From NCBI GenBank assembly GCA_039680605.1, contig JBDKTA010000044.1:62001-126000 (forward strand): a DNA stretch of 64,000 nucleotides, in the 5' to 3' direction. Both the position numbers and the translations under genes were made by a program. The notes below the pieces were generated by a model, which searched no databases, was not told the origin of the DNA, and saw nothing but the letters and a program-made list of their open reading frames with translations. The stretch comes from Planctomycetaceae bacterium. Lineage in GTDB: Bacteria > Planctomycetota > Phycisphaerae > SM23-33. Shown one piece after another: positions 42,452 through 50,232 of the stretch. Each line of letters starts with the position of its first letter. The stretch's first letter is position 1.

Positions 42452-43270
42452 TCAATCTGTGAACAGCGTGATCGACGAGTCATAGAAACCGTTCCACAAC
42501 GAGGGGTCACCCGTCCCGCCCACAGCCGTAGGGTCTTCGCTGTCGTATCCGGCCTCCGTCATTGTCAGCGACCGCACGTTGCCGTCGGCGAAGACGACGT
42601 TGAATTTGGACCCGTGGCGCGGGTCGGCCGGGCACTGCAGCCCTGAGCCCGAGTCGCCCCAGCGCCCTTGCAGCGCCACCGGCGGGTCGAGGGTGTAGGC
42701 GTGTGGCTGGCCGGTCATGGCGTTGTCGCCGAAGGAGTCGCCGACGAGGATGGTCTGGGCGGGCTTGGCGATCTGGCTGCGCACCACGGGACCATATCGC
42801 CGCAGTCCCGTCGCCTGCGGGGCGAAGGGGCCAAACGTCATCCAGTTGTATCCGTACGAGCCGGTGCGGGCGTAGTCGCCGCGGTTCTTGCCTGGCGGGA
42901 GCTGATACTTTGAAGCCGCAATATTCGGGCAGCGAAACCCATTGCTGATAATCATGTTTCCGTTGGAAGGAAGGCTTTCGATGTTCGGATCGACCACCGA
43001 CCCGCCGATATAGGGCCCCAGCAGAGTGATCCATCGCACCTGCGGGTTGGTCTTGGACCGCACCGTGGGATAGCTGTCATTGTTCGCCCGAGTGTAGGCA
43101 TTCATGGCTCGGCCGATCTCTTTGATATTGGTGGCACAAACGACACGCCGGGCATCCTGAAGTGAATTGCCTACCACCGGAACCAGGATCGAAACCAACA
43201 CCGAGATGATCGCCACCACGACCAGCAACTCCACCAGCGTGAATCCTCCTGTTCGATACTTGTCGTTCAT
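42452..43270 (-). CDS. Type II secretion-type pseudopilin with H-X9-DG domain
   Basis: A 272-residue protein with a prepilin peptidase signal: GGFTLVELLVVVAIISVLVSI, where G precedes the F at +1 and E sits at +5. The C-terminal domain ends with HGSKFNVVFADG, the H-X9-DG motif that is common in Planctomycetota and usually annotated DUF1559. AAGGAAGG precedes the ATG. It is likely assembled by a type IV pilus/T2SS-like machine encoded elsewhere. The anti-sigma protein at 45575 has a related ectodomain. Confidence 0.92.
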   Translation of the reverse strand: MNDKYRTGGFTLVELLVVVAIISVLVSILVPVVGNSLQDARRVVCATNIKEIGRAMNAYTRANNDSYPTVRSKTNPQVRWITLLGPYIGGSVVDPNIESLPSNGNMIISNGFRCPNIAASKYQLPPGKNRGDYARTGSYGYNWMTFGPFAPQATGLRRYGPVVRSQIAKPAQTILVGDSFGDNAMTGQPHAYTLDPPVALQGRWGDSGSGLQCPADPRHGSKFNVVFADGNVRSLTMTEAGYDSEDPTAVGGTGDPSLWNGFYDSSITLFTD

Positions 43271-45574: not shown

Positions 45575-46597
45575 CTAGCGCTGCGCCGAGGTGCAGAAAT
45601 CCGGCAGGAGGAAGCTGTCGGTTTCGTTGACGGGTTTTTCGTCGCCGCGGTAATCGGTGAGGTCGCCGGCGAGGAAGATGTTGTCGCCGTTGACGCCCAC
45701 CAGCGGGCCCTTGGTCCAGGCCACGTGCTTGTCCATATAAAGGACGTTCTGGCCGGCCTCGCTGTGGTTGGGGCTGACGAGCCTGGCCGCCCGCTGATTC
45801 GTCACCGTGCTGCGGACGAAGCGTCCGCCGGAGAAGACCGGCGTTCGGTCGGCCAGGATTGCCATTGACCTGACCACCTTGTCGCTCTGCTGAACCGACA
45901 GCCCCTGCGGGGCCAGGCTGTGCTGGTACGAATACGTTACATCCCGCGGACTGGGAAAATCGGTCAAGCCTCGTGGGTCGTAATCGCCCGCCGGCGCGTC
46001 CGGGCTTTGGGCGGCGGGGCAGCGAAACGCCCGCTGCGTGGCGTACCCCAGCGACACCAGCCGGAACAGCGCGCTGGAGTTGCTCGCCGCCGGCGGAGAG
46101 GACCCATCGAGCCATTGCCCCGCCGCGGCGCGGGCCGTCGGAAGACGATTGCCGTTCTCGTTGGCATAGGCGGTCATCGCCGTTCCGATCTGTCCCATCT
46201 GAACGGCGCAGAGCACCTTGAGCTGGTTCTGGTGCGCCTCGTGGCGCCACATCGCATAGACGCCGACGAGCGCCAACAGGACAGCCGCGACGGCGGAGAG
46301 TTCCTTCACGGAGAACGTCGGGCGGCGAATGACGCGACCGATCTGCTCGCGGGCGAGCAGTTCGTTGGTGTGCTGATACTGGCGGATGCGGTGAAGGGTC
46401 TTGGCGACCAGGTCCGCCGGCGGATCGGCGGGGGGAAGATGTTTGGCGGCCGAGAAGGCGTTGGCGATGCTGTCGTGGAGGTTTCTGAAATCGGTTTCGG
46501 CGTCGAGGCGGCGTTTGACTTCGTCGCTCGATGGCGGATCGCACTGGCCCAGGAGAAAGTCGATCAACAGCGCCTGGTCTTCTTGTCCTATCGCCAT
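45575..46597 (-). CDS. Membrane anti-sigma factor with pseudopilin-like ectodomain
   Basis: A 340-residue protein. A cytoplasmic N-terminus (about 1-95) follows directly on the sigma gene; one membrane helix is about 98-120 (LSAVAAVLLALVGVYAMW). The extracytoplasmic part starts QLKVLCAVQMGQIGTAMTAY, strikingly like RRVVCATNIKEIGRAMNAY in the pseudopilin at 42452, and ends with NHSEAGQNVLYMDKH, an H-X9-D variant of H-X9-DG. AGAGGTGA lies upstream of the ATG at 46597. The sigma/anti-sigma role comes from gene order; no zinc-finger motif is visible. Confidence 0.8.
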   Translation of the reverse strand: MAIGQEDQALLIDFLLGQCDPPSSDEVKRRLDAETDFRNLHDSIANAFSAAKHLPPADPPADLVAKTLHRIRQYQHTNELLAREQIGRVIRRPTFSVKELSAVAAVLLALVGVYAMWRHEAHQNQLKVLCAVQMGQIGTAMTAYANENGNRLPTARAAAGQWLDGSSPPAASNSSALFRLVSLGYATQRAFRCPAAQSPDAPAGDYDPRGLTDFPSPRDVTYSYQHSLAPQGLSVQQSDKVVRSMAILADRTPVFSGGRFVRSTVTNQRAARLVSPNHSEAGQNVLYMDKHVAWTKGPLVGVNGDNIFLAGDLTDYRGDEKPVNETDSFLLPDFCTSAQR

Positions 46598-46602
46598 GTC
46601 AC

Positions 46603-47199
46603 TCACCTCTTTGCAGAGGCCCTCCATTTTTGTGCAAAAAGCGACACTGCCGCATGTATCCTCGATTTGATTGTGCCAAGCGGTGCATCCAGTATTTCCG
46701 CGATTTCTTTGTAGGGCATCCCGTGGAAATAACTCATCAACAGCACCACGCGCAGATGCTCCGGCATCTCATCGACGATATTCTGTACGGCCTCCTGCAC
46801 CTCCAGGTTCGAAAGACTTTCTTCCGGCGCGGGAACGTCTGAAGGAATCAGGTGCCCGTACGAAATGCTTTCGGCGCTGGAATCGACCGCCACGTCGAGC
46901 GAGACCGCCCGCCGACGCGAGCGGCTGCGAAGGGCGTCACGGGCCTTGTTGGCGGCGATCGTGAACAGCCACGGTTTGAGCCGCTTGGACTGGTCGAAGA
47001 GGGCGGCCGAGAGGTGCAGTTGCAGGAAGGTTTCCTGAAAGATATCTTCCGCCAGCGCCGGATCGCCGGTGAAGCGGGCCAGGAAGTTATACAATTCGTT
47101 GCGGTAGAGGTCGATCAGTGCAGCGAAGGCCTCCTGGTCGCCATCGAGATAGCGCTGGAGAAGCTGAATATCCTGCGGGATGTTCTCGGTTGTGGGCAA
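46603..47199 (-). CDS. ECF-type RNA polymerase sigma factor
   Basis: A 198-residue ECF sigma. Region 2 is about 20-95 (AEDIFQETFLQLHL, RLKPWLFTIAANKARDAL), region 4 about 135-190 (LRVVLLMSYFHGMPYKEIAEILDAPLGTIKSRIHAA). It is followed five bases later by the membrane anti-sigma gene. The frame offers only TTG at 47199 as an initiator and no good ribosome site is seen, so the start is uncertain. Target promoters unknown. Confidence 0.93.
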   Translation of the reverse strand: MPTTENIPQDIQLLQRYLDGDQEAFAALIDLYRNELYNFLARFTGDPALAEDIFQETFLQLHLSAALFDQSKRLKPWLFTIAANKARDALRSRSRRRAVSLDVAVDSSAESISYGHLIPSDVPAPEESLSNLEVQEAVQNIVDEMPEHLRVVLLMSYFHGMPYKEIAEILDAPLGTIKSRIHAAVSLFAQKWRASAKR

Positions 47200-47369
47200 A
47201 AGTCGGGTCCACCGCTTCAGACGGCTGCACTGTATCGCTGCTACCCATTATACCGCCGCTGCGGACCATAGCGGGGCGCACCACGATACCACAGCGGCGC
47301 GCGGGGCAAAAGCCTTTGCCTTTTTCGCCCGGCGGGCTATCCTGAGCGAAGAAGACGAGTTGGCTTGCG

Positions 47370-47460
47370 AGATCGTCCTCGTCCTCGTCGTCGTCCTCGG
47401 TTTTTGGTGCCGGGAAAACGACCGACGACGAGGACGAACGACGACGACGAGTACGAGGAT
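47370..47460. repeat. Low-complexity inverted repeat CGTCCTC / GACGAGG, left copy
   Basis: A TCGTCCTCGTCCTCGTCGTCG-like tract is followed by GTTTTTGGTGCCGGGAAAAC and then a GACGACGAGGACGAACGACG-like tract. The two arms can pair imperfectly into a long hairpin. It ends at the ribosome site of the heparinase-like gene. A longer related element lies just after that gene (49320-49526). Confidence 0.8.
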
Positions 47461-47463
47461 ATT

Positions 47464-49296
47464 ATGCGACGAGGTTTGCTGGCAACGCGTGACGAACTGA
47501 CCGCCCTGCGCGAAAAAATTTCGCAGCGGCCTTTCGACCAGATCTACCAGCGCCTGCACAAGCGATGCGGGCTGATCCTCGAGACCGCCCCCATTACGCA
47601 GATGCAGTGGCAAGCCAGTTGGCGCGGCGGGCAGTGGTGCTCGGCCGTCCTGGCCGCACGGGCCACCCAGGGGCGCATCCTCGACCTGGCCGTGGCGCAC
47701 CATATCGACCCCAACACCGCGTTCCGCAACCGCGCTATCGAGGAGCTCAAGAACCTCGCCTCGTGGGGAAATTGGATCGACCCCTGTCATAACGAGACGG
47801 GCGCCGATCTGTGTACCGCCGAAGCGGCGGTGGCGGCCGTGATCGGCCTGGACTGGCTCTGGGAAGACATGCGCGACGCCGACCGGCGCCGGGTGCTCGA
47901 GGCCGTCTCGAACAACGCCCTGGGACCCTATCGCGGCGCTGTGGCCCAGGATGCCTGGTGGCACACGAGCTATCATAACTGGAACGCCGTCATCAACGGC
48001 GGGATGGCCTTGGCGGCGATGGCTGTCGAAGACGACGACCCGCTGGGCGCGCCCGTGCGCGAGCTGGCCATGAGCGGGCTCAAGCATTTCTTCGACGCCC
48101 TGGGCAGCCAGGGCGGCTGGGACGAAGGCCCGGACTTCTGGGGCTACGCCATGCGGTACGTGCTGCTGCTGGGCGAGGCGACGGCGCGCCTCAAAGACGA
48201 CCAGCGCATCCTCCATGCGCGGGGCATGACCACTACCGGCGAGTTTCCGGTCTATTTCTCGCCCAACGCCCACCCCGTCAGTTTTGGCGACGCCTGGTCG
48301 ATGCCCCTGTACGGCGCGCTGTACCTGCTGGTCAAGCACCACCAGTGCCAGCCGCTGCTGTGGTGGCTCGACACCTACAGCTCTCCGCATGACGTCTCGG
48401 CCAGCGGGTATTCCACCGGCGCCTTCGCGATGCTGATGCGACCGGCCGGTGCGCCCACGCCCGAAACCGTGCCGATGGAACCGGTCAAGGCCTTCACCGA
48501 GGCGGGCCTGGCGGCGATGGCGGACCATTGGCCGCGCCCGTCGTTCTACGCCGCCATGCGCAGCGGCGACCTGTCGGCCAATCATGCCCACCACGATATC
48601 AACAGCCTGCAATTGCAGGTCGACGGCGAGTTGCTGCTGATCGATCCGGGCAGTCCGTCCTTCACGGCAGAGCATTTCGGAACGCAGCGAGCCAGCCTCT
48701 ACCACGTGCAGGCCCGCGCGCACAACACCCTGACGGTCGGACGCCGCGACCACCAGATGGACAGCCAGGGCAGCATCGCCGCCTGGTCGTCCGACGCCGC
48801 CAGCCGCTGGGTCTCCTGCGACGCCCAGGGCGCCTGCGGCGACAACGTGCGCTTCCTGCGTCAGATCGTCATGCTGCTCGACGCCAAGGGCGCCGGCCAG
48901 AAGCTCATCGTGCTCGACGAGGTCGACAACGCCGTGCCCGAGCCGGTCGAGCTGTTCTGGCACACGCTGGGCGAACTGGACCTGGTCGAGCAGTCCGGCG
49001 CTATCATCGGCGCCAAGGCGGCTGTTCATTTCGCCATCGCCGCCAGTGTTCCCGTCGAGATGGATATCAGCACGCGGGGCGCCTTCCACGGCGGGCGGCA
49101 TACGACGCTGTGCGCCTCGGCCGGCGGCGTCTCGCGCCTCCACATCGCCAGCGTGTTCTCGCGCCACAAGATCGCCGGCAAGGTCAGCATGGCCGAAACC
49201 GACGACGGAAAGATCGTTATCCATGCCGGCAAGGCGGCCGTAACGTTCGGGCGAATCCGCGGCGGGCTCAAACTCATTGAGGCGAAATTGGGCTGA
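47464..49296 (+). CDS. Heparinase II/III-family protein, probable polysaccharide lyase
   Basis: A 610-residue protein of the heparinase II/III (PL15/PL21-like) group. The first 320 residues form the alpha-toroid, with TSYHNWNAV (catalytic-type Asn/His) and GGWDEGPDFWGYAMRY. The C-terminal beta-sandwich has NHAHHDINSLQLQVDGELL and a HNTLTV strand, matching the His-containing substrate cleft. It would cleave uronic-acid-containing polysaccharides. GAGG lies five bases before the ATG at 47464. No signal peptide is seen, unusual for a lyase. The gene is bracketed by related inverted repeats. Confidence 0.83.
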   Translation: MRRGLLATRDELTALREKISQRPFDQIYQRLHKRCGLILETAPITQMQWQASWRGGQWCSAVLAARATQGRILDLAVAHHIDPNTAFRNRAIEELKNLASWGNWIDPCHNETGADLCTAEAAVAAVIGLDWLWEDMRDADRRRVLEAVSNNALGPYRGAVAQDAWWHTSYHNWNAVINGGMALAAMAVEDDDPLGAPVRELAMSGLKHFFDALGSQGGWDEGPDFWGYAMRYVLLLGEATARLKDDQRILHARGMTTTGEFPVYFSPNAHPVSFGDAWSMPLYGALYLLVKHHQCQPLLWWLDTYSSPHDVSASGYSTGAFAMLMRPAGAPTPETVPMEPVKAFTEAGLAAMADHWPRPSFYAAMRSGDLSANHAHHDINSLQLQVDGELLLIDPGSPSFTAEHFGTQRASLYHVQARAHNTLTVGRRDHQMDSQGSIAAWSSDAASRWVSCDAQGACGDNVRFLRQIVMLLDAKGAGQKLIVLDEVDNAVPEPVELFWHTLGELDLVEQSGAIIGAKAAVHFAIAASVPVEMDISTRGAFHGGRHTTLCASAGGVSRLHIASVFSRHKIAGKVSMAETDDGKIVIHAGKAAVTFGRIRGGLKLIEAKLG

Positions 49297-49526: not shown

Positions 49527-49596
49527 TGTTTCCCTCCCCCCTGCGCCGGCACAACTCTCATTGCACTCCCCGCGCGAGAGGGGTATATTCTTCTAC

Positions 49597-50232
49597 ATGG
49601 ACGCTGGCACATACAGTGCGTTGGACAGTAATGTGCTGGTGCTGAACAGGCACTATGCAGCCGTTCATGTCGTCTCGGCCCGGCGGGCGATCACGATGTT
49701 GTTCAAGAACATCGCCGAGATCGTCTCCGTCGAGGACAGCCAGTACCTCTCCTACGACTTCGATTCCTGGCGCGCCGTCAGCGAGCACCGCGCCAAGTAC
49801 CAGCGCGAGCACTACGACTGGGTGCGCTGCGTGAAGTTCGAGATCGCCGTGCCGCGCATCGTGCGGCTGCTGTTCTACGATCGCCTGCCCAAGATCCCCG
49901 TCAAGTTCACGCGCCGCAACATCTACGCCCGCGACCGCAACCGCTGCCAGTACTGCGGCAAGAAGTTCCCCACCACCGAACTGAGCCTGGACCACATCGT
50001 CCCGCGAAGCCGCGGCGGCGGGGCCTCCTGGACCAACATCGTCTGCTGCTGCGTCGCGTGCAACAGCCGCAAGGGCGGCCGCCTGCCCGACGAGGCCGGA
50101 ATGAAACTCATTACCGAGCCCATCCGCCCCAAACGCTCCCCCGCCGTGACCCTGCGCCTGACGAGCATGAAATACGCCTCCTGGAAACAGTTCCTCGACG
50201 CGGCGTACTGGAACGTCGAACTCAAAGACTAA
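49597..50232 (+). CDS. HNH endonuclease-family protein
   Basis: A 211-residue protein with an HNH domain in its second half: RCQYCGKKF, LDHIVPRSRGG, WTNIVCCCVACNSRKG, giving the Zn-binding Cys pairs and the His-Asn catalytic core. The N-terminal half (NVLVLNRHYAAVHVVSARRAI) is the typical opening of the stand-alone HNH family common in bacteria. No intein or intron partner is adjacent. The ATG at 49597 gives the family-typical N-terminus. Confidence 0.92.
   Translation: MDAGTYSALDSNVLVLNRHYAAVHVVSARRAITMLFKNIAEIVSVEDSQYLSYDFDSWRAVSEHRAKYQREHYDWVRCVKFEIAVPRIVRLLFYDRLPKIPVKFTRRNIYARDRNRCQYCGKKFPTTELSLDHIVPRSRGGGASWTNIVCCCVACNSRKGGRLPDEAGMKLITEPIRPKRSPAVTLRLTSMKYASWKQFLDAAYWNVELKD

Follow-up and report, generated by a model that had tools for sequence, protein, structure and literature searches.

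In the window, by which we mean the whole 64,000-nucleotide stretch that was analysed, a gene for an ECF sigma factor is followed on the minus strand, after a gap of 5 nt, by a gene for a membrane protein in which a predicted anti-sigma domain precedes a pilin-type subunit (Table 1). Translation of the plus strand over the latter gene is interrupted by an internal stop. The ATG start of the fusion gene at 46597 is backed by a GAGGTG sequence six bases upstream and by the starts of its orthologs; this Shine-Dalgarno-like element lies over the sigma stop codon, from which translational coupling to the sigma gene is probable. The pairing of the two genes, proposed in an initial annotation of this DNA, is kept well beyond the window: in all 40 loci fetched from the class Phycisphaerae, the gene immediately upstream, in the same orientation, encodes a sigma homologue, as it does in the loci of the same order with room for it.

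Table 1. Features of the sigma factor and fusion protein genes (positions in the window).
Feature	Position	Strand	Basis
Anti-sigma/pilin fusion protein gene, 340 aa	45575..46597	minus	Translation and orthologs
Predicted cytoplasmic anti-sigma domain, residues 1-87	46337..46597	minus	NF052375, AF2 model, Foldseek
T94 at position -1, in prepilins the residue (G or A) of the prepilin peptidase cut	46316..46318	minus	Residue counts
Pilin alpha-1 helix, residues 95-147 (F95 = F1, E99 = E5)	46157..46315	minus	Alignments, PDB profile matches, AF2
C130 (position 36 in pilin numbering), invariant across fusions and pseudopilins	46208..46210	minus	
Globular pilin-type ectodomain, residues 148-340	45578..46156	minus	hhalign without the helix, AF2
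C193, invariant in fusions and pseudopilins	46019..46021	minus	
NHSEAGQNVLYMDKH, counterpart of the DUF1559 pseudopilin H-X9-DG motif	45725..45769	minus	
Shine-Dalgarno-like GAGGTG, over the stop codon of the sigma gene (46605-46603)	46604..46609	minus	Sequence
ECF sigma factor gene, 198 aa, TTG start	46603..47199	minus	Pfam Sigma70_r2 (1.8e-17), Sigma70_r4_2 (1.3e-15)

The anti-sigma character of the N-terminus, also proposed earlier, was borne out by family models and by fold. NCBIfam model NF052375 ('anti-sigma factor') was matched by 24 of 24 orthologs (best E = 5.6e-13), and by the N-terminus of the window protein with E = 2.2e-9, a score under the curated whole-protein cut-off. The AF2 model of the domain contains four helices (residues 5-15, 21-33, 35-50 and 63-87) and resembles sigma-bound anti-sigma factors; in a Foldseek search of the PDB, nine of the 14 matches, the top ones among them, were ECF anti-sigma chains (RsiW, ChrR and RslA), all with E > 1. 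A Pfam search of the 340-residue product and its orthologs returned no anti-sigma family, and no Pfam match of any kind for the window product. The zinc motif Hx3Cx2C was present in 0 of 72 fusions; non-zinc members of the ASDI class of anti-sigma domains exist (PMC7406223). Because the window protein scores under the curated cut-off, we base the label on the NF052375 match, the operon and the fold together; on these grounds, the membrane fusion protein very probably restrains its ECF sigma factor. The sub-threshold NCBIfam score, the missing Pfam family and the Foldseek values could instead be read to mean that the domain merely tethers the pilin subunit. We find this hardly credible, since every ortholog matches the anti-sigma model, ECF anti-sigma chains form the majority of the structural matches, and the sigma gene always adjoins.

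Beyond residue 87, the protein aligns with pilin subunits. Prepilins encoded in the same genome aligned by tblastn over residues 88-333 (best E = 6.6e-18, 33% identity; the pseudopilin in the window, E = 3.2e-7). Profile-profile comparison by hhalign of 57 fusions with 34 pseudopilins, some of which had been found by similarity to the fusion while most of those from the same genome also came from an independent N_methyl search, extended from F1 to the C-terminus with a score of 354 (E = 2.3e-54). Omission of the first 34 columns left a score of 288 (E = 3.5e-46; ≤ 14 in 20 column-shuffled controls), and the helix by itself (columns 1-34 to 1-34) scored 43.5, where 40 shuffles reached 15.6 at most. 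As both the helix-only and the helix-free comparisons lie far above their shuffles, helix and ectodomain were both inherited from a pseudopilin. The initial annotation had thus correctly derived the outer part from a pseudopilin, the likeness in tblastn and in the DUF1559 profile alignment being far beyond chance, and the two strings that it quoted from the fusion are present in the minus-strand translation of 45575-46597, as is the pseudopilin string in the pseudopilin at 43270..42452 (minus).

Its further statement that a membrane helix had replaced the N-terminal pilin helix has to be revised: the membrane helix is the pilin helix itself, in exact register (F1, S/T2, E5, A11, P22, C36), and just the glycine of the prepilin peptidase site is gone. 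In the ortholog and class-wide alignments, the helix opens with F-[ST]-L-[RK]-E-[LV], followed by A10, A11, P22, C36 and N-L-x-x-I-G, as in pseudopilins. Among the 33 rows of the order alignment, a few of them fragmentary, F1 was found in 29, E5 in 30, P22 in 29 and R/K at position 4 in 29; among the 39 rows of the class alignment, F1 was found in 18, E5 in 18 with D in another 15 (E or D, 33), and P22 in 32. In the window protein, position 22 is M. This conservation stands beside an identity across the fusion family of ∼40% within the order and lower beyond. When the ortholog profile was compared with all PDB chains, six of the seven matches with E < 1 were type IV pilins; these were singly weak (E from 0.017 to 0.86) and consistent in register, and chains beginning at mature residue 1 put it on profile column 96, which is the F1 column. 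TIGR01710, for the type II secretion pseudopilin GspG, was matched by the N-terminal helix of 4/24 orthologs, and AF2 gave a continuous helix over residues 97-147 whether run with orthologs alone or with pseudopilins added.

Many of the invariant columns of the ortholog alignment fall in the ectodomain, and a C130-C193 disulfide is possible. The 'changed H-X9-DG' noted earlier towards the protein end is H-X10-DK in the window protein, and the exact motif is kept in orthologs L019 and L025 (NHSDGQNVLYLDG). PF07596 was matched in 5/24 orthologs (best E = 0.035). In the window protein, the pilin part is missed by Pfam alone and recovered by profile-profile comparison. With 16 orthologs, AF2 reached a pLDDT of 60.5 and modelled the ectodomain poorly; with 36 aligned sequences including homologous pseudopilins, the whole-chain mean pLDDT rose to 87.9 (pTM 0.68), with a mixed globular domain beyond helix 97-147. 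Since the gain came from adding pseudopilins, this ectodomain model cannot be taken as separate evidence of homology. None of the 14 Foldseek matches in the PDB had a pilin fold, and viral structures gave nothing of use; thus independent structural support is lacking for the globular part.

Prepilin peptidase prefers G at position -1. The prepilins of the same genome have G (18), A (14) or L (1) there, i.e. G/A in 32/33. In contrast, this position in the order fusions is T (23), R (4), I (1), V (1) or A (1) and never G (T/R in 27/30); G or A occurs in 1/30 order fusions and in 5/39 class fusions. The short basic leader ending in G (or A) is absent from the fusion, which has T/R at -1 behind an 87-residue anti-sigma domain, and the window fusion is absent among the N_methyl matches of its own genome. 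With a domain of this size in front and no G at -1, cleavage by prepilin peptidase is unlikely. The most fitting reading of the protein is a pilin left uncleaved, with an anti-sigma domain as its 'leader'. We also considered that a cut between residues 94 and 95 might free the anti-sigma 'leader' and send the pilin part to the filament. The anti-sigma domain does stand exactly at the place of a prepilin leader, and prepilin peptidases are present in the genome, but the residues at -1 and the R/K at position 4, which is unlike prepilins, make such a cleavage switch quite improbable.

The architecture is widespread among relatives. It was found in 34/38 genomes of the same family and order, where some of the lowest-scoring matches are fragmentary or pseudopilin-like, and in 20/20 of the high-quality ones; in the class Phycisphaerae, 125/248 genomes matched at E ≤ 1e-40 (106/194 high-quality). 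Among 392 genomes drawn over the phylum, matches were confined to the same class, an absence elsewhere that is provisional because just five candidates were scored per genome. The named loci come from metagenome-assembled genomes of uncultured Phycisphaerae and other Planctomycetota. A search of genome contigs with a single protein as query gave no match; a six-sequence alignment as query did. A tree built from 41 fusions together with 30 pseudopilins placed the fusions in a single clade (100/98), as expected if they arose once. The nearest pseudopilin group, whose support as sister is weak (87/66), includes two genes that lie in tandem in the same genome (L178, 8663-10425; contig C14, about 66.7-68.4 kb). 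Beside this tandem pair lies a gene for a protein of 1127 aa that has a Golvesin_C domain and, at its N-terminus, a hydrophobic stretch like that of pilins; other neighbours, judged from sequence alone, resemble genes for making polysaccharide and activating sulfate. A pseudopilin at L071 4925-5830 has a degenerate helix (TA followed by FSLADLLWMLFFILLL) and a fusion-like C-terminus (GQNVLYMDGH...GVNNDNIY), perhaps representing an intermediate form. Two further copies are divergent or frameshifted: L035 169-1242 has lost the F1/E5 motif (VPRWRQWTS), and L036 710-1884 is split over two frames.

The sigma gene is the sole universal neighbour of the fusion gene. No conserved pilus or secretion gene lies beside it. 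On either side of 15 orthologs, within flanks of at most 10 kb each, no prepilin gene was found, so that the association with the window pseudopilin (42452) is not conserved. A divergent Hepar_II_III_C-type (heparinase-like) gene lies beside the sigma gene in 6/16 loci (47365-49296, plus strand, in the window), and an HNH endonuclease gene occurs in 9/16 (49561-50232, plus strand). Upstream of 30 sigma orthologs, the ECF-type pattern AAC-N-CGT was not enriched (2/30 versus 5.3 expected), giving no sign of ECF-type autoregulation. A sigma70-like TTGACC-N17/18-TATgAT pattern, picked after the sequences had been seen, was found in 14/30 of these regions versus 0.5 expected (e.g. L009, L010, L014, L015 and L016). 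The operon promoter thus appears housekeeping-like rather than ECF-like, with no visible feedback circuit.

Collectively, the sequence comparisons establish a protein with an anti-sigma-like domain in the place of the leader, the alpha-1 helix in register, a complete pseudopilin ectodomain and a lost peptidase site, in tandem with an ECF sigma gene across Phycisphaerae. This suggests that in Phycisphaerae cells gene expression may depend on the condition of a pilus or secretion machinery. We propose, at somewhat less than even confidence, that the protein is a membrane anti-sigma factor with an entire uncleaved DUF1559-type pilin subunit as its receptor half, reading contacts with pilins or secretion components. 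The anti-sigma domain would retain its sigma factor at the inner membrane, with the outer domain in the periplasm. A subunit that is neither cut nor methylated would stay in the membrane and, having kept E5 and the helix face, could remain able to pack against a filament base or against mature (pseudo)pilins. A change in these contacts (through the pool of subunits, their assembly, or the jamming of a pilus or a type II secretion system) would then alter the anti-sigma domain or open the protein to proteolysis, and either event would set the sigma factor free; the trigger could be that the pilin half gains, or loses, contact with its pilin or secretion partners. In pili, E5 pairs with the F1 amine of an adjacent subunit, a contact proposed to drive docking (PMC5059446). 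An uncut fusion could accept the E5 contact but would have no F1 amine of its own to present to a following subunit, and would thus serve as an end-stop or a probe, not as a unit from which the filament is built. Partners for it exist, as 52 matches to N_methyl were found in the genome and two prepilin peptidases scored above the cut-off. More tentatively, such proteins might be 'frozen prepilins' throughout the class, their leader swapped for an anti-sigma domain, inserted among pseudopilins via E5 and the helix, and reporting filament assembly or blockage directly to RNA polymerase through the ECF sigma factor.

The retention of E/D5 (63/69 fusions) and P22 (59/69), neither of which a mere anchor needs, supports the proposal that the fusion senses pilin state. 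Counted against it are R/K instead of a hydrophobic residue at position 4, the missing P22 of the window protein, the lack of conserved pilus or secretion linkage, and a promoter that is not ECF-like; moreover, pilus-grade packing may have relaxed, given F1 in 18/39 class members and D at position 5 in 15/39. Alternatively, the pilin ectodomain may have been recruited as a periplasmic binding domain (e.g. for a glycan, a metal or envelope stress), with pili no longer contacted and the helix an inherited anchor. With no pilus gene conserved nearby and F1 relaxed in the wider class, such a ligand sensor on a pilin fold is almost as likely as sensing of pilin state. It would also fit with the many invariant ectodomain columns, the heparinase-like gene in 6/16 loci and, as read from sequence alone, the polysaccharide-synthesis-like genes that adjoin the closest pseudopilins; DUF1559-type domains also occur behind Sec signal peptides, without a prepilin motif (PMC8567305). 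Against it stand the acidic residue 5, A10/A11 and P22, kept in exact spacing across the class. These same helix residues would be left unexplained if the fusion acted by regulated proteolysis apart from pili, its ectodomain being the target or shield of a site-1 protease. RseA and RsiW are one-TM anti-sigma factors that work in this way, which is common for the type, but the recurrent neighbourhood clusters listed contain no protease gene, and we regard this route as unlikely.

In the open-access literature, we found no description joining an anti-sigma factor with a pseudopilin, DUF1559 or pilin-like domain, and an earlier mention in planctomycete papers is possible; what is new here is the type of receptor on a membrane anti-sigma factor. 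Planctomycetales have 41 or more genes with a prepilin motif per genome (PMC8567305), and planctomycetes are rich in DUF1559 pseudopilins of poorly understood function, as the 52 N_methyl matches of this genome illustrate. A conserved regulator built from a pseudopilin is a genetic handle on them: its sigma regulon and trigger would make part of pseudopilin function testable. If our proposal holds, a pilin homologue would be employed here for signalling, as a receptor, and not for building filaments.

Like the class I (ASDI) anti-sigma factors RseA, RsiW, RskA, RslA and ChrR, the fusion has an N-terminal helical anti-sigma domain and is encoded beside an ECF sigma factor, and like RseA, RsiW and RskA it has a single membrane helix. 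In contrast to them, its membrane helix and outer domain make up a complete pilin subunit, and it has no zinc motif; a survey of ASDI proteins makes no mention of pilins in its text (PMC7406223). With the N_methyl pseudopilins of the DUF1559/SBP_bac_10 family (PF07596), it shares the alpha-1 helix with F1, E5 and P22, C36-x-x-N-L-x-x-I-G, C193, GQNVLYxDGHV and the ending TDxFLLP, and it departs from them in its paired sigma gene, in R/K at position 4, in T/R at -1 and in the 87-residue anti-sigma domain that takes the place of a short leader. GspG of type II secretion and the type IV pilins have the N-terminal helix in common with the fusion, whose globular domain differs and which is probably uncleaved. 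In Pseudomonas, PilS directly contacts PilA, a precedent for intramembrane sensing of pilin (PMC6058289), and the fusion would likewise couple membrane pilin state to transcription. Whereas PilS is a six-TM kinase that reads the pilin, here the regulator itself is a pilin homologue and would act on an ECF sigma factor.
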